From the NCBI GenBank assembly GCA_026397715.1, contig JAPLUN010000417.1, forward strand, positions 1 through 32,225: a stretch of 32,225 nucleotides of DNA, given 5' to 3'. The notes under the pieces were generated by a model, which ran no database searches, was not told the DNA's origin, and saw nothing but the letters and a program-made list of their open reading frames with translations. Shown in pieces: positions 780 through 9,834 of this stretch (position 1 is its first letter; every line of letters starts with the position of its first letter). The translations under genes were made by a program, and so were the position numbers. This stretch comes from Verrucomicrobiota bacterium (lineage in GTDB: Bacteria > Verrucomicrobiota > Verrucomicrobiia > Verrucomicrobiales > Verrucomicrobiaceae).

Positions 780-1508
780 TCACACCAGACCAAACAATTT
801 CTTCAACACTGCTTCATCCGCCGTGGTGGCGAGGAGGAAGGTTTGGCTGCCATCGCTCCAACTGGCCATGTTCCAGTTCTTGCTGGTCTTGAACTCTGGC
901 TGAAGCTGAGGAGGCTGATCGGAGAGGCCGGTGTTGTCCATCACGACAAGGTGCGCCTCTTTGCCGGGCTCAATTTCAAAGCAGATGATGGATGCCACAC
1001 GACCCGCAACTTGGATGCGCTTGCAGGCCAGCACAGGCATGGTCCCCACCGTGCCTGGCAGGCGGGCCGGCGTCGGAGATCGATCCGCGACGAGCATCTT
1101 TTTGATGGCTTCGAAATCTCGCGAGACGTGATCGACCTTGGACATGCCGTACTCGACTTTCGTCAAGGCAGCAAGCGAGTCAGCCTGCCAGCCCGGCATG
1201 CCGCTGTTCACAGGCCAAAGCATGGTCCAGCCCAAAACCACCGCTGCAGCAGCTGCAGCCAGCATGGGCAGAACCCAGCGGGTGGGACGTTTGGCTGGCT
1301 GCATGGCATTTTGCAGAATACTTGCCCGCAGCCCTGCTGGAATGGTGGCAGCAAAGGCCCCGGCGACTTGCTCATCAAACTCAGTGCGCTTTTTCAGCCA
1401 TGCGCCCAGTTCGGGATCGCTCTCAGCCATCGCACGCGCCTCGGGCGATGCATCCTGAGGGCGGAGCGTCGTGGCATCGAGTTCGAGTCTGGCTTCTTCG
1501 CGGTTCAC
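780..1508 (-). CDS. Probable one-TM anti-sigma factor
   Basis: The frame stays open well upstream of this start, but that part overlaps the sigma gene and has no domain sense. The chosen start is the GTG at 1508, which overlaps the sigma stop as GTGA and suggests translational coupling. The product has 242 residues: a charged, probably cytoplasmic N-terminus (1-75), a transmembrane helix at about 78-99 after RPTR, and an outer domain of about 140 residues. The outer domain holds two cysteines, Cys162 (LACKR) and Cys176 (IICFE). The position right after an ECF sigma gene and the topology match membrane anti-sigma factors. No HxxxCxxC zinc motif is present in the N-terminal part, so it is not a classical ZAS-type protein. 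It probably holds the sigma factor inactive until an envelope signal, possibly metal or redox, is sensed. Confidence 0.72.
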   Translation of the reverse strand: MNREEARLELDATTLRPQDASPEARAMAESDPELGAWLKKRTEFDEQVAGAFAATIPAGLRASILQNAMQPAKRPTRWVLPMLAAAAAAVVLGWTMLWPVNSGMPGWQADSLAALTKVEYGMSKVDHVSRDFEAIKKMLVADRSPTPARLPGTVGTMPVLACKRIQVAGRVASIICFEIEPGKEAHLVVMDNTGLSDQPPQLQPEFKTSKNWNMASWSDGSQTFLLATTADEAVLKKLFGLV

Positions 1509-2104
1509 GAGGCGGATAGGGGGATGATGTTGGAGGGGGCGGAGTCTTCGAGCCGGCGCAAAATGGTGCGCAGGCTGTCTTTGGCACGGGAAAGGCGTGA
1601 CATCACCGTGCCGATGGGAACGCCCAACGTCTCGGCGATGTCTCGGTAGGATAGCTCCTTGAGGTAAAAAAGCACCAGTGGCGCTCGGTAATTGGGCTCC
1701 AGTTCTTCGAGCGCCGTTTGCAGCGTGGCGCTGTCCACACGCGGATTTTCGCCATCGTCGTTGTGCTGGGTGGCACCATGCTGCTCGGGTTCGAATTCGA
1801 CTTCCTCGTATTTTTTTTCGCGGCGGGCGATGCCGAGCCATTCGCGGTAGATCGTGGTGAAAAGCCAGGTCTTAACCTTCGAGGCGTCACGCAGCGTGTG
1901 CCCTTTCTTCGCCCATTGCAGAAAGGTCTGCTGCACCAGATCCTGCGCAGTCGCCTCTCGCCGGCACATGCTCATGGCGAAGCGGTAAAGCCCCTGATAG
2001 TGGGAGTCCACGATCTGCTCAAAGCTGGGCACAGTGTCGGTCACGCGTCGAGGTATCGTGCGGGTTGCAGGCAGTTCAATGCCGAATTGGAAGGCAGATT
2101 CCAT
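1505..2104 (-). CDS. ECF-type RNA polymerase sigma factor
   Basis: The 199-residue protein has region 2 at about 30-97, with the LVQQTFLQWAKK core and KVKTWLFTTIYREWLG typical of sigma-70 region 2. Region 4 lies at about 128-182, with the helix-turn-helix LSYRDIAETLGVPIGTVMSRLSRAK. Regions 1 and 3 are absent, as in ECF sigma factors. It directs RNA polymerase to a small regulon and is normally kept inactive by the adjacent anti-sigma factor. The gene lies 58 bases downstream of the DoxX gene, and that gap holds a copy of the two-box motif also found before the bufA-like gene. It may therefore be transcribed both with the bufferin operon and from its own promoter. An acidic, poorly conserved linker (about 100-125) joins the two regions. 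Confidence 0.93.
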   Translation of the reverse strand: MESAFQFGIELPATRTIPRRVTDTVPSFEQIVDSHYQGLYRFAMSMCRREATAQDLVQQTFLQWAKKGHTLRDASKVKTWLFTTIYREWLGIARREKKYEEVEFEPEQHGATQHNDDGENPRVDSATLQTALEELEPNYRAPLVLFYLKELSYRDIAETLGVPIGTVMSRLSRAKDSLRTILRRLEDSAPSNIIPLSAS

Positions 2105-2130
2105 GAGTTCATGGGTCGGATATGCAGGTG

Positions 2131-2159
2131 GGAGACGTGACCGCAGCGTTTATTCCCGC
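2131..2159 (-). promoter_or_regulatory. Candidate ECF promoter of the sigma gene
   Basis: Read on the minus strand, GCGGGAATAA is followed after exactly 15 bases by CTCC, inside GTCTCC. The same two boxes at the same spacing occur upstream of the bufA-like gene (4726-4754). A GGAAT-type -35 box and a GTC-containing -10 box fit ECF promoters in general. Transcription would begin near 2124, about 20 bases before the sigma ATG. The site suggests autoregulation, which is inference from the shared motif. Confidence 0.6.
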
Positions 2160-2162
2160 TAT

Positions 2163-2621
2163 TTACGCTTTTTTTCGCCGACGCAGCAGTTCATCGGCCG
2201 ACAGCCTGCCAGGACCAAAAATGAAGACGGTCAGGCTGACCAGCAGAAAGAGAAACGGCGGGGCGCTGACGAAGGAGTCGGCATCGGACCAGATCGTTTT
2301 GACCACATCGAGATGTGCCGTGCCGTAGGCGACGAGCATGGTGAAGATCAGTGGCACGCAAATGACTCGGGAGAAGAGGCCCGCCAGAAGCAGCAAGCCA
2401 CCAAAGCACTCCGTGCAGCCCGCTAGGTAGGCATTCAGCTCTGGAAAGGGAATGCCGAGTTCGGTGAAAAAAGCTGTGGGCATGCTGATGTCGCTGAGCT
2501 TGCCTTTTCCGGTCTGAAAAAACTGCCAGCCCCAGTAGAGGCGGATGCCGAGCAAAAAGGGATCTGCCAGGTAGCTGGCGGTACGATCGAGGAGGGAGTT
2601 GGCGAAGGTCCAAGGTTTCAT
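2163..2621 (-). CDS. DoxX family membrane protein of the bufferin operon
   Basis: The 152-residue protein has four hydrophobic segments and typical DoxX features: LLGIRLYWGWQFFQTGKGKL near the N-terminus, then an F-x-ELGIPFPELNAYLAGCTECFGGLLLLAGL stretch. DoxX proteins are small inner-membrane proteins of poorly defined, often redox- or metal-related, function. They recur in bufferin and gold-induced (gig) operons, where this gene is the D member in Caulobacter. The ATG overlaps the stop of the DUF2063 gene as ATGA, so translation is probably coupled. The tail RRRKKA places the C-terminus on the cytoplasmic side. The family is clear; its exact role here is not known. Confidence 0.88.
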   Translation of the reverse strand: MKPWTFANSLLDRTASYLADPFLLGIRLYWGWQFFQTGKGKLSDISMPTAFFTELGIPFPELNAYLAGCTECFGGLLLLAGLFSRVICVPLIFTMLVAYGTAHLDVVKTIWSDADSFVSAPPFLFLLVSLTVFIFGPGRLSADELLRRRKKA

Positions 2622-3484
2622 GATTTGCGGGGAAATTGGGTGAACCAGCCGAGCTGGGAGAATTCGGTGAACCAGTCACGAATCTGTGCGGGCCAGTCAG
2701 TGTCCGGACTGGCCTGGGAGAGGGCGAATTCGATGGCATCCGCCAGCGTGAGGCCATCCCTCAATGCCGTGAGCATGGCGAAGGACTCCGGGGCCAGGCG
2801 CTTGAAGTACAACTGGTTGTCATGGCGGTGAACGGCCAGATGCACACACTCGCGTTTTAATTTTGGTGCCTTGGCGACTTTGGCACGTGTGGGTGCCTCG
2901 GACATGGCCTGGCTGGCTGAACCGCGCACATCGGCATCGGCTTTTTTCATCGCGGTGATGAAGTGATCGACGGCGTGGTCGATCAGCAGAAGCACGACGC
3001 AGGGCTGGAGCCCCAGACGAAGCATGGAGGGATCTGCGCCAAGGAGATCATCAATCCGCAGCGGCTTTTTCAACACCTCGTCAAAGGCAAGCGTCTGCGC
3101 CCATTCAACGCGGGCAACATCACGCGCCTTGAGATCCGTAATAAAATCTGAAAGTGCGGAGCCTAGATTACGTAGAGTCCAGGAAGTGCTGGGATGCTTC
3201 GCGAGGTAGTCGCGGCAGAGCCGGTGAAAGCGGCGCTCGCCCAGGAAAACACGCAGCGCGGGATAGTCGTCGTAGAGACAGTCGAGCAGGCGGAACCAGT
3301 ACTGGCGGGCGTAGATTTCGAGCCTCTCGAATCCGCTCATGCGGTCGTTCGGCGTGATGAAATCGACCTGAGTGCTGGCGGACAGGCCATCCTGGCGTGT
3401 GAGCGGCTGCATCAGCGCGGCAGCCATGGTGCGTTGCAATTGGCGCAGGTCGGCATTGGTGCGGAGACGGCTAGGCGTGGGCAT
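2618..3484 (-). CDS. bufC: DUF2063 (BufC-like) partner protein of the MNIO enzyme
   Basis: The frame is open further upstream, but that part lies inside the DUF692 gene, so the start is placed at the ATG at 3484; an ATG six bases earlier at 3490 is also possible. This gives 288 residues overlapping the upstream gene by 14 bases. The N-terminal half is a DUF2063 domain: LQRTMAAALMQPLTR, RLEIYARQYWFRLLDCLYDD, then YLAKHPSTSWTLRNLG. The C-terminal half has a winged-helix-like section (about 215-275, ESFAMLTALRDGLTLADAIEFAL). DUF2063 proteins are encoded next to DUF692 oxidases, and experimental work on bufferins and related peptides indicates that they help present the precursor peptide to the enzyme. 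The basic, Ala- and Lys-rich link between the halves is not conserved. Downstream overlap with the DoxX gene is ATGA. Confidence 0.88.
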   Translation of the reverse strand: MPTPSRLRTNADLRQLQRTMAAALMQPLTRQDGLSASTQVDFITPNDRMSGFERLEIYARQYWFRLLDCLYDDYPALRVFLGERRFHRLCRDYLAKHPSTSWTLRNLGSALSDFITDLKARDVARVEWAQTLAFDEVLKKPLRIDDLLGADPSMLRLGLQPCVVLLLIDHAVDHFITAMKKADADVRGSASQAMSEAPTRAKVAKAPKLKRECVHLAVHRHDNQLYFKRLAPESFAMLTALRDGLTLADAIEFALSQASPDTDWPAQIRDWFTEFSQLGWFTQFPRKS

Positions 3485-4313
3485 GCTCATGAAGGTAGCG
3501 GTTGGCTTTGAGCGCTTCGGCATGCACATCATCGAAGCTGGGGATTTTGTCGTCCCATTCGAGGAGCGTAGCGGTGCTGCCGGATTGCTTAATGGCAGAG
3601 GCGTAAAGATCCCAGACAGGATCGGGCACGGGATGATCGTGGGTGTCGAGGATGACGTGATCGAGCCGGGTGTGTCCGGCGATGTGAATCTGGCCGACTC
3701 GTTGATGCGGCACTGCACGGAGGTATTCGAAGGGATCGAAGCCGTGGTTCTGCGAGGAGACGTAGATGTTGTTTACATCCAGGAGGATGCCGCAGTCAGC
3801 TTGCTCAACGACTTCGTTGAGGAATTCCCACTCGGTCATCTCATTCTGCGTGAATTCGGCGTAGCTGCTCACATTTTCCACGCAGATGGGCACTTCAAGG
3901 AAATCCCGCGCCTGCCTGATTTTCTCGGCGGTGTGCCTTGCCACACTCAGGGTGTAGGGCATGGGCAGGAGGTCGTGGGAGCAGCGGCCATCCACACTGC
4001 CCCAGCAGAGGTGATCAGAGAGCCAGGGCGTGTTGGTGCGCTTCACCAGACGCTTCAATTTTCTGAGGTGGTCGCGGTTCAGGGGATCGGCATTGCCGAA
4101 GTACATCGACACCCCGTGTTGCACGACGCGGTACTGCTCCAAAATGCTGTCCAGCACCTCCAACGGGCGACCGCCATCGACCATGAAATTTTCGGAAATG
4201 ATCTCAAACCAGTCACAGACGGGCTTCTTCTCCAGAATATGCCGGTAGTGCGGCACACGGAGGCCGAGACCGATGCCGAGATCGGTGTGACCATTGTGAG
4301 GGTTCGCGGGCAT
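3471..4313 (-). CDS. bufB: DUF692 multinuclear non-heme iron oxidase (BufB-like)
   Basis: The 280-residue length is typical for DUF692/MNIO enzymes, which form a TIM-type barrel holding two or three iron ions and modify cysteines of ribosomally made peptides. Family landmarks are visible in order: GIGLGLRVPHY, WFEIISENFM, the HGVSMYFG segment, LSDHLCWG, CVENVSSY, LLDVNNIYVSS, IHIAGHT and DTHDHPVPDPVW. The His, Asp and Glu residues in these segments are the usual metal ligands. In bufferins the enzyme converts Cys to a thiooxazole that binds copper; here the substrate is probably the Cys-rich protein encoded 83 bases upstream. A modest ribosome site (AGGA, ten bases before the ATG) is present. 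A strong hairpin lies between the precursor gene and this one. Confidence 0.92.
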   Translation of the reverse strand: MPANPHNGHTDLGIGLGLRVPHYRHILEKKPVCDWFEIISENFMVDGGRPLEVLDSILEQYRVVQHGVSMYFGNADPLNRDHLRKLKRLVKRTNTPWLSDHLCWGSVDGRCSHDLLPMPYTLSVARHTAEKIRQARDFLEVPICVENVSSYAEFTQNEMTEWEFLNEVVEQADCGILLDVNNIYVSSQNHGFDPFEYLRAVPHQRVGQIHIAGHTRLDHVILDTHDHPVPDPVWDLYASAIKQSGSTATLLEWDDKIPSFDDVHAEALKANRYLHEHAHA

Positions 4314-4348
4314 TTTTTGGAGTTCCTAATGTGAAGTTTAAAGATTGG

Positions 4349-4383
4349 CCGCAGCCACACGCGGGGGTGTCGTGTGGCTGCGG
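4349..4383 (-). repeat. Perfect 12-bp hairpin between precursor and modifying-enzyme genes
   Basis: CCGCAGCCACAC at 4349-4360 is perfectly complementary to GTGTGGCTGCGG at 4372-4383, with an 11-base loop. It sits just after the bufA-like stop codon. The minus-strand sequence after the stem has only a short T run (ATCTTTAAAC), so it is not a full intrinsic terminator. It more likely stops part of the transcripts or protects the 3' end of the precursor mRNA. Confidence 0.75.
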
Positions 4384-4396
4384 AAATCGATTCGGC

Positions 4397-4654
4397 TTAC
4401 TTCTTCGGCATGGTGTTGCAGCCGCCTTTGCCCTTGCAGGAGTTCTTGCCTTTGCAGCCGTTGTCGCCGGACTTGCAGCCTCCCTGTCCTTTGCAGGTAT
4501 TGTGTCCCTTGCAGGCATGCTGACCTTTGTCCGCCATCTTTTCAATGGAGACGCCGAGGCTGGCGGCCTTCTGGGTGCTGGTGGTCTGGGCGGCGTAGGC
4601 ACCGGAAAGGAGACCGGTGAAGGCGGCGGCGGCGATGATGTGCTTGGTGCTCAT
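4397..4654 (-). CDS. bufA: Bufferin-type Cys-rich precursor peptide (BufA-like)
   Basis: The 85-residue product starts with a signal peptide (MSTKHIIAAAAFTGLLSGAYA, cut likely after residue 21), so the mature part acts outside the cytoplasm. The mature part is short and polar and carries six cysteines at 48, 54, 60, 67, 73 and 79. They form two tandem units of the pattern C-K-G-x-N-[ST]-C-K-G-x-G-G-C, 19 residues apart. This matches the CKGxNxCKG type of periplasmic bufferin metallophores rather than the EGKCG type. Bufferins are large RiPPs with a Sec signal whose cysteines are modified by a DUF692 enzyme to sequester copper. The gene heads the operon and has a candidate ECF promoter about 70 bases upstream. 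Copper as the ligand is inference from the family. Confidence 0.85.
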   Translation of the reverse strand: MSTKHIIAAAAFTGLLSGAYAAQTTSTQKAASLGVSIEKMADKGQHACKGHNTCKGQGGCKSGDNGCKGKNSCKGKGGCNTMPKK

Positions 4655-4725
4655 GGTAGGTGTGATGTACTTTGGTTTGTTTGTTAGTTCTGGCTGGCTG
4701 CGGGGATTCGAGCCATCGCAACGTT

Positions 4726-4754
4726 GGAGCCTCCGCCCCTGCGATTATTCCCGC
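4726..4754 (-). promoter_or_regulatory. Candidate ECF promoter of the bufferin operon
   Basis: On the minus strand GCGGGAATAA is followed after exactly 15 bases by CTCC, followed by A-A-C. The same boxes at the same spacing precede the sigma gene (2131-2159), where ten of ten bases of the upstream box and all four of the downstream box agree. The intervening CGC after the first box is also shared. Transcription from here would leave a leader of about 60 bases before the precursor ATG. Confidence 0.62.
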
Positions 4755-7805: not shown

Positions 7806-8828
7806 ATGGTGAGACATTACTTGATGTTCTTGGCCTCCAAAGCATCAGCCTCCATGAGCTCGCGCATCATGTGCGCAATGTTTGCCTCGCTATGCTTGGG
7901 CCTCACACAAGGTCGTGCGATCGTGTTTGAAGCCACCGCCGATCCCAATCACAACATCACGGCCCCCACCGGCATCTTTGCCAATTCAGGCTGGCAGTAC
8001 GAAGGTACCTACGGCGCCTACCTCGGCACCATGATCGCGCCGCAGTACTTCATCACCGCGCAGCATTTCGGCACTCAGGGCAGCACCTTCACACAAAACG
8101 GCATTTTCAGTGGTGGCGCGGACGTGACCTACAACATCGACACCGCAGCCAACAGCGGCATCGGCTATTGGGACATCGCTGGCACTGACCTGCGCATCTT
8201 CAAAATTCAGGAAACCTTTGCCTACTATGCCCCCCTTTACACGGGATCCTCTGAAACAGGTCTGACCATGGAGATCAACGGCAGAGGCGGTCCACGCGGG
8301 GCGGATATCCTCGTCGGCGGGATACTGCATGGCTGGCAGGATAGCAGCCCTGATGGTACCGCGCGCTGGGGCACGAACACAGTCAGCGGCATTTATTCGA
8401 GCGCGATCGGCGATCTGCTCACCGCCTCATTCAGTGCCAGTGGAACCGCCGAAGAAGCCACCCTTTCCAACGGCGATTCCGGCGGCGGCGTATTCGTCAA
8501 TGACGGCGGCATCTGGAAACTGGCTGGCGTGAACTACAGCATTGATGGCATGTTCGACACCAACAACACCACTGGGGATGGCAGCGATTTCAATGCAGCA
8601 CTCTTTGATCGCGGCGGTCTCTATCAGGGCTCCGACTCCTTTGGCTGGACATTCATTCCTGATCTCCCGCTGGACAATCCCTCCAGCATGTACGCCTCGC
8701 GCATCTCCACCAGCGCGGCCTCCATCATGTCCATCACCTTGGTTCCAGAGCCTCAGTCGGCTTTGCTGGTGATGCTGGCTATCTCAGCAGGCTTGTTGCA
8801 GCGCAGGCGCGTCACGCGGCCGGTTTGA
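7806..8828 (+). CDS. Secreted trypsin-like serine protease with PEP-CTERM sorting signal
   Basis: The 340-residue protein has a long N-terminal export signal ending near GRA at 36-38. The body is chymotrypsin-like: FITAQHF (His87), TDLRIFKI (Asp128 as likely acid) and GDSGGG (Ser225), followed by WKLAGVNYS. The usual TAAHC is TAQHF, so the Cys next to the histidine is missing. The C-terminus is a textbook PEP-CTERM tail: VPEP at 313-316, a 16-residue hydrophobic segment and an RRR cluster. Such tails are recognised by exosortases, which are not encoded here. The start is uncertain, since several ATGs lie in the first 25 codons. The 157-base gap before it holds no gene. The 3' end overlaps the convergent PIN-TRAM gene by 17 bases. 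Confidence 0.85.
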   Translation: MVRHYLMFLASKASASMSSRIMCAMFASLCLGLTQGRAIVFEATADPNHNITAPTGIFANSGWQYEGTYGAYLGTMIAPQYFITAQHFGTQGSTFTQNGIFSGGADVTYNIDTAANSGIGYWDIAGTDLRIFKIQETFAYYAPLYTGSSETGLTMEINGRGGPRGADILVGGILHGWQDSSPDGTARWGTNTVSGIYSSAIGDLLTASFSASGTAEEATLSNGDSGGGVFVNDGGIWKLAGVNYSIDGMFDTNNTTGDGSDFNAALFDRGGLYQGSDSFGWTFIPDLPLDNPSSMYASRISTSAASIMSITLVPEPQSALLVMLAISAGLLQRRRVTRPV

Positions 8829-9834
8829 TCTCAGCAAAGATCAGCCTTCCGGCACTGGTCGGCAGGGTGCCCGAAACCACCACATCCACCGTCTGCCCGA
8901 TCTGCGCGGCCGCATTGTTCACGACGATCATGGCACCATCTGGCAGATAGCCCACCGCCTGGTTCTTGTCCTTGCCCGGTTTGGTCAGCGGCAGCCGCAG
9001 TTCATCGCCCACGCTGAGTTCTGGATTCAAGGCTGCGACCAGTTCGCGCAGGCTGAGCACCGTGATGCCACGCAGCCGGGCCACCTTGGCGAGATTGTCA
9101 TCACTGGTCAGCAGGCGGGCGTTCAGCTCACGCGCCAGCGTCACCAGCCGCACTTCCACCGAGGCATCGGATGTGCCGTCTTCATGAATGGAAACTTTCA
9201 TCTCAGGCCTTGCCCGCAGTTTTTCCATCATCTCCAGACCTCTCTTCCCCCGCAGAGATTGCGCCACCTCGGGGGAGTCTGCCAGATGCTGGAGCCCGTC
9301 TAAAACGCAACGCGGCACCACGACGGCACCGCTGAGAAATCCGGTGGCAAACATACCTGGCAGCCGGGCATCCATGACGACGTTCGCGTCCAGCAGCAGC
9401 GGTTCACCTTCAGAGCCGTCTCGGCGGAACCGGATGTATGGGATCAGAAAGGCAAACTGGTCCCGGTCACTGCGCAGCGCAAATGTGACCCCAAAAAACG
9501 CCAGAGTCCCATAGATGCAGATCTCCGCGACGTTTTGCAGCGCCACACCCTCCTCGTGATTTTGGAAATAGGCGAGCTGGAACACGCCGATGCGCGTGAT
9601 CAGCCATGCGCAGAAGAGCCCCACCGCAAGCCCCAGCGTGGCGTGGGAAAAATCCCGCAGGGTGAAATGCGCCAGCAGCACATCCAGCACCACCAGCATG
9701 CCCATGAAAACCGCGCCACTCAACGCTCCGACCCAGGCGTCCTGGTCCAAGCCAAGGGCGATCGCGATGCCAATGAAAACGGAGAACGCAAAGAACAGCG
9801 CACGCACAAGGCGGATGGGCCAGGAAGTTTTCAT
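8812..9834 (-). CDS. PIN-TRAM domain membrane protein (YacL-like)
   Basis: The ATG at 9834 was chosen over an upstream in-frame GTG at 9846. The 340-residue protein has four transmembrane segments in its first 125 residues, a PIN nuclease-like domain (about 145-265, starting LLLDANVVMDARL and including LLTSDDNLAKVARLRGI) and a C-terminal TRAM domain (about 280-340, SVGDELRLPLTKPGKDKNQAVGYL). This order is that of the widespread YacL/PIN-TRAM family. The acidic residues of a PIN active site are visible at the D-A-N, in the middle and in TSDDN. Family members are suspected RNases tethered to the membrane. It is the last gene of a leftward group that starts at glpK, 51 bases after the previous stop. 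Confidence 0.88.
   Translation of the reverse strand: MKTSWPIRLVRALFFAFSVFIGIAIALGLDQDAWVGALSGAVFMGMLVVLDVLLAHFTLRDFSHATLGLAVGLFCAWLITRIGVFQLAYFQNHEEGVALQNVAEICIYGTLAFFGVTFALRSDRDQFAFLIPYIRFRRDGSEGEPLLLDANVVMDARLPGMFATGFLSGAVVVPRCVLDGLQHLADSPEVAQSLRGKRGLEMMEKLRARPEMKVSIHEDGTSDASVEVRLVTLARELNARLLTSDDNLAKVARLRGITVLSLRELVAALNPELSVGDELRLPLTKPGKDKNQAVGYLPDGAMIVVNNAAAQIGQTVDVVVSGTLPTSAGRLIFAEIKPAA

Follow-up and report, generated by a model that had tools for sequence, protein, structure and literature searches.

Known bufferin and envelope-stress systems

Bufferins protect against copper, and sigma and anti-sigma genes have been reported with Buf1 but not Buf2 clusters (PMC12452194); the main text of that study does not mention Verrucomicrobiota. 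In Caulobacter, the SigF (ECF16) regulon comprises YedY/MsrP, DUF2282-DUF692-DUF2063-DoxX operons and sigF-nrsF itself, and two conserved cysteines of the anti-sigma factor NrsF are needed for control (PMC3511200). The ECF16 HOCl systems of Brucella and Azospira also pair an ECF factor with membrane-bound NrsF, control MsrPQ, and have a methionine-rich scavenger peptide, MrpX/BcrX (PMC8315932).

The window analysed here, a stretch of 32,225 nucleotides, is an entire contig of a 6.76-Mb draft genome whose near relatives bear the name Prosthecobacter or Verrucomicrobiaceae. Judged from its sequence, the source would be a Prosthecobacter-like bacterium with a copper-buffering peptide operon adjoining a stress sigma factor and a membrane anti-sigma factor (Table 1). 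As in SigF-NrsF, an ECF factor goes with a putative membrane anti-sigma factor that has two conserved cysteines, and the predicted regulon is small, has a single promoter motif in common and includes MsrP, a bufferin operon and the sigma gene. However, NrsF has six transmembrane (TM) segments (PF06532), whereas the anti-sigma factor of the window has one, followed by a long outer domain. Unlike in Caulobacter, the precursor is BufA2-like rather than DUF2282, and secreted MsrA and MsrB are among the predicted targets. The precursor-MNIO-DUF2063-DoxX order, the Sec signal peptide and the 6-Cys core are those of Buf2/BufA2 clusters, but the clusters described in PMC12452194 lack the attached ECF-anti-sigma pair, and the precursor falls below the curated BufA2 cut-off. 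Control of MsrPQ, predicted here for the genome of the window, is shared with Brucella and Azospira, but the peptide here is Cys-rich and putatively MNIO-modified, and the anti-sigma factor is a different one. What appears to be new is thus the verrucomicrobial regulon variant, this kind of circuit (SigF-NrsF, ECF16) being already known.

The operon and the sigma/anti-sigma pair

Table 1. Positions of genes and predicted signals of the bufferin locus in the window, with the basis of each assignment
Feature	Position	Strand	Basis
bufA, secreted precursor, 85 aa	4397-4654	-	translation; NCBIfam BufA2 8e-9
bufB, putative MNIO (DUF692) bufferin maturase	3471-4313	-	PF05114 6e-106; NF050167 MNIO_BufB
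DUF2063 partner protein of MNIO (PME-type 1)	2618-3490	-	PF09836 1e-17, above cut-off
DoxX/HvfX-type membrane protein	2163-2621	-	PF07681 4e-19, above cut-off; NF050144 79.8 bits vs cut-off 80
ECF sigma factor (ecf), verrucomicrobial clade apart from SigF (ECF16)	1505-2104	-	Sigma70_r2 and r4_2 above cut-off; tree
Putative anti-sigma factor (anti), one TM	780-1508	-	gene order, topology, sub-threshold profiles, AlphaFold model
Predicted ECF promoter of buf genes, GGAATAA-N15-CTCCAAC	4724-4752	-	kept before bufA in relatives
Predicted ECF promoter of ecf-anti, GGAATAA-N15-CTCCCAC	about 2128-2156	-	also precedes ecf in genus relatives, whether or not they have buf genes
Strong hairpin in bufA-MNIO gap	4345-4385	-	-30 kcal/mol; kept in genus

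Open reading frames, translations and family searches bear out the six minus-strand genes in the order given by the preliminary description, and the ATGA overlap at the DoxX gene and the GTGA overlap at the ecf/anti-sigma junction, which it had also listed, are both seen (the anti-sigma gene starts with GTG). The DUF2063 gene starts with ATG and shares 20 bp with the MNIO gene. Since the order is repeated in nine genus relatives, it is not due to chance. The 58-bp doxX-ecf gap contains a separate predicted ECF-type promoter, so the pair need not rely on read-through from the buf genes. The hairpin between bufA and the MNIO gene would serve as an attenuator or processing site and may set the excess of bufA over the maturase. 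On the plus strand, at 373-777, a small lipoprotein gene with a CVNCH haem-binding motif is convergent with the anti-sigma gene; it is also there in several buf-less relatives.

The identification of the operon as bufferin-type was likewise upheld. The MNIO, DUF2063 and DoxX proteins pass curated or Pfam cut-offs (PF09836 and PF07681 for the two partners), and the MNIO is of the BufB type, with 344.4 bits against a cut-off of 310 for NF050167 in the NCBIfam search. The bufA precursor has a signal peptide ending in AxA and a core, HxCKGxNxCKGxGGCKSGDNGCKGKNSCKGKGGC, with six cysteines. It scores 35.5 bits with the BufA2 profile NF050166, below the cut-off of 60, and is therefore called BufA2-like. 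The 6-Cys core is common to nearly all Verrucomicrobiota and Acidobacteriota loci examined.

The ECF factor belongs to a verrucomicrobial clade (support 98/97) separate from SigF-type factors, to which it is 21-29% identical; only two SigF-type references, on long branches, were in the tree. The product of 780-1508 is putatively its anti-sigma factor, on the basis of gene order, topology and sub-threshold profile matches: its gene overlaps and follows ecf, an N-in topology with one TM is given by both sequence and model, and its only profile matches, DUF3379 and the NCBIfam 'antisigma' entry (21.7 bits), are both below threshold. In those loci outside the genus that were examined, the two genes remain paired. 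The protein consists of an N-terminal helical domain, a TM at about residues 78-100 and an outer alpha/beta domain. Neither the protein itself (at E<=1) nor 18 homologues (at E<=0.1) match the NrsF family PF06532. Membership in NrsF/ECF16 was rejected by the profile search and by the tree with its two SigF references: the window system is not a SigF-NrsF member because its anti-sigma factor differs in family and topology and its ECF factor falls in another clade. The one-TM putative anti-sigma factor outside the NrsF family, and the Cys-bearing outer domain ascribed to it earlier, are both supported by profiles, topology and alignment. Two cysteines, Cys162 and Cys176, are invariant, both in 18 aligned homologues with identities as low as 26% and in each of the 31 genus-level or paralogous rows. 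In the AlphaFold model, they occupy neighbouring strands (159-167 and 170-180) of the outer domain, which has a pLDDT of about 90; the linker and TM region are of low confidence. A fold family could not be named from Foldseek, whose best hits, RseB chains (E about 0.008, TM 0.28), are too weak, and a sequence search against solved structures gave chance matches only. A literature search for DUF3379 together with a sigma factor found nothing.

In five genus genomes (G018, G033, G009, G019 and G034; loci L068-L072) there is also a paralogous ECF/anti-sigma pair (about 50% and 25% identity), preceded by a tiny Cys-rich lipoprotein gene. In G019, a GGAATAA-type promoter motif is also found upstream of this second pair.

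Linkage of the pair to the buf genes

Nine genus relatives carry a complete buf operon (G002, G012, G013, G017, G018, G022, G027, G029 and G030), and in all nine the order is bufA-MNIO-DUF2063-DoxX-ecf-anti; G017 has an insertion of about 1 kb ahead of ecf. Comparison of gene order around DUF692 genes, proposed earlier as a check on the linkage, therefore places the pair beside the buf genes in 9/9 cases, but another 14 genus relatives have ecf-anti (anti-sigma identity 39-60%) and no MNIO match. In these buf-less relatives, ecf-anti is flanked directly by murC on its other side where the contig reaches that far; the pair adjoins murC in the genus with or without buf genes. In G001, truncated MNIO and DUF2063 pieces remain between murC and an intact pair, and by its sequence this remnant is a buf loss in progress. 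The buf-less relatives and the G001 remnant indicate that the pair is the stable resident while the buf genes come and go. Mapped on the ECF tree, gain and loss of the buf cassette take five state changes, of which only the loss in G001 is clear because the deep forks are poorly supported.

These results bear on the proposal that the pair serves the bufferin operon alone, as its metal-triggered regulator, and is cotranscribed from the 3' end of that operon. Its attractions are the six-gene order, found in the nine relatives and in L185, the protection that bufferins give against copper (PMC12452194), and the promoter motif upstream of bufA. However, the pair exists without MNIO in 14 relatives and intact beside degraded MNIO and DUF2063 genes in G001, ecf has its own predicted promoter, msrB and msrPQ share the motif, and in several Opitutae genomes that have both, the pair is located away from the buf genes. 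The dedicated-regulator reading was rejected on these grounds and is very unlikely. The sigma factor is accordingly not the operon's "own", as it had been called: pairs occur without MNIO, and the predicted regulon includes secreted MsrB, MsrPQ and, elsewhere, MsrA.

Outside the genus, where a pair was counted if ecf exceeded 150 bits and the anti-sigma gene was present, it is found next to buf genes in loci of Opitutae, Spartobacteria and Limisphaerales. It lies 3' of them in L185, L195, L200, L201, L212 and L221, and 5' in L189, L196, L217 and L238. In a set of 388 genomes from the phylum, 70 have the anti-sigma family, 33 have MNIO and 24 have both; the family is present in 24/33 MNIO genomes vs 46/355 others (p=4e-13, kinship ignored). 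The suggestion of a verrucomicrobial version of the operon with this regulator pair is supported by this distribution. In L176 (8096-10314), a gene for a 613-aa thioredoxin-domain protein and a second bufA copy lie between DoxX and ecf.

A 3' regulator is found in other phyla as well. In Acidobacteriaceae (L193, L206, L223 and L233, at about 8200-9140), an ECF and an anti-sigma gene also follow DoxX of a BufA2-like operon, but their ECF is 25-30% identical to that of the window and the anti-sigma factor is an 88-aa soluble zinc-finger type; the GGAATAA-type motif is absent upstream of bufA in these four loci. On an Asticcacaulis plasmid (L404, NC_014818.1, 3673-7439), genes for a BufA2 precursor (100 bits vs cut-off 60), MNIO, DUF2063, ECF, NrsF and NrsF form one run. 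By these sequences, linkage of an ECF gene to Buf2 and the 3' position are not unique to Verrucomicrobiota, and the 3' place, to which the preliminary description had drawn attention, is not special, the pair being 5' in other Verrucomicrobiota. The BufA2-like operons compared here carry three kinds of regulator: an ECF factor with a one-TM anti-sigma factor (Verrucomicrobiota), with a zinc-finger one (Acidobacteriaceae) or with NrsF (Asticcacaulis). The published rule that sigma factors go with Buf1 and not Buf2 clusters (PMC12452194) is now qualified. On a Rhodanobacter plasmid (L407, 3657-5549), DUF2282-MNIO-DUF2063 genes lie within a mercury-resistance (mer) cluster.

The promoter motif and the predicted regulon

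In the window and its relatives, bufA and ecf are both preceded by the motif GGAATAA-N14-16-CTCNCAY, which is found before ecf in nearly every genus genome, those without buf genes included. The self-amplifying circuit envisaged earlier is supported to the extent that bufA and ecf have the same predicted promoter. A slightly looser pattern has six matches in the genome of the window, vs one in the reversed control. They precede bufA, ecf, secreted msrB (C479), a SigK-like ECF gene and two others (C90, with spacing 14 and -10 part CTCGAA, and C553), which are probably due to chance as no sensible gene follows them. Upstream of msrP (C71), with msrQ next, the sequence is GGAATAG-N15-CTCACAC. The MsrB and MsrP identities are above curated cut-offs. 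In 21 genus genomes, 48 matches vs one in the reversed control were found, with bufA, ecf, msrB, msrP and the SigK-like ECF gene as recurrent targets and secreted msrA (G018) and trxB (G016) as targets in single genomes.

From these sequence data, we consider it likely that the ECF factor and its one-TM anti-sigma factor form an autoregulated envelope oxidation-stress switch, the bufferin operon being one member of the regulon. In the resting cell, the cytoplasmic domain of the anti-sigma factor would hold the ECF factor at the membrane, as family precedent suggests. Alteration of the outer domain, probably by oxidation of, or metal binding to, the two invariant cysteines, would release the ECF factor to transcribe from GGAATAA-N14-16-CTCNCAY promoters. 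The ecf-anti promoter is among the predicted targets, which would result in positive autoregulation. Expression of the buf operon would provide DoxX and a secreted Cys-rich peptide matured by MNIO and its DUF2063 partner, while secreted MsrB and MsrPQ would repair oxidised methionine outside the cytoplasm.

The motif might instead belong to another ECF factor, with the neighbouring pair regulating something else. A similar motif precedes the paralogous ECF gene of some genus members, so another sigma factor could share these promoters; the SigK-like ECF gene also carries a site; and msrB has retained a motif-like promoter in G003 and G010, neither of which yielded a pair. Conversely, G014 and G016 have the pair and no good msrB site. 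Against this alternative, the motif stands directly upstream of ecf in nearly every genus genome, and in other families and orders it precedes ecf homologues, a placement that usually signals autoregulation; the presence of the pair also predicts the motif. It is an improbable reading, and the switch controlled by the adjacent pair is preferred.

In 20 more-distant genomes, 47 matches vs one or two control matches were found, and the motif recurs before the same kinds of gene: ECF-anti (G306, G127, G219, G266), bufA (G127, G171, G137), doxX (G219, G124, G171, G409, G137), secreted msrA (G124, G171, G409, G148, G137), secreted msrB (G219, G171, G409, G137), msrP (G072, G115), dsbD-like genes (G115, G266), trxB (G266) and a ResA/TlpA-like gene (G148). 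Three genomes of one family with MNIO and without the pair (G091, G103, G201) have matches at unrelated genes only. Sites before Msr, buf, DoxX or ECF genes make up 20/30 of those examined in anti-sigma-positive genomes vs 0/9 in negative ones (p=0.0004, or p=0.017 with G409 counted as negative); the motif is upstream of bufA outside the genus in 5/8 loci with an adjacent pair vs 6/56 without (p=0.003), and upstream of msrB in 11/16 anti-sigma-positive vs 2/12 negative genomes (p=0.008), although these Fisher tests overstate independence because the genomes are related by descent. G409 has DoxX, MsrA and MsrB sites, and an anti-sigma gene was not among the few candidates scored there by the search. 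These sequence matches suggest that the regulon may extend across much of Verrucomicrobiota.

As to the signal, oxidants, or copper combined with an oxidant, are what the Msr targets point to, and these repair targets suit oxidants no less than the metal trigger proposed earlier. Alternatively, the pair could be the regulator and its signal the binding of copper or some other metal by the two cysteines, methionine repair being induced since copper toxicity oxidises periplasmic proteins. Two invariant cysteines suit metal as well as redox chemistry, and Caulobacter SigF responds to chromate and cadmium (PMC3511200). However, a copper exporter or oxidase is absent among the motif targets, and the data do not separate metal from oxidant; a metal signal of this kind is a possibility that we hold to be rather unlikely. 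On a wider proposal, built on the oxidation-stress switch, we are evenly divided: that this is a phylum-wide, previously undescribed ECF regulon, whose non-NrsF anti-sigma factor would sense periplasmic oxidation or copper directly via its two cysteines, and which would have reached a SigF-NrsF-like output independently, with an MNIO-made Cys-rich bufferin and methionine sulfoxide reductases that act outside the cytoplasm. A literature search for verrucomicrobial ECF regulons found none described, and the stress biology of the phylum gains a defined promoter motif together with a short list of predicted targets. In distant phyla, two sigma/anti-sigma systems that are unrelated appear to bring bufferin and Msr genes together, and this suggests that bufferins take part in a general cell-envelope response to oxidised sulfur.

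The motif also precedes the SigK-like ECF gene at G000:C418 8525-8554 (L111), G013:C198 (L133) and G018:C26 (L127), and a sigma cascade is possible from these sites.
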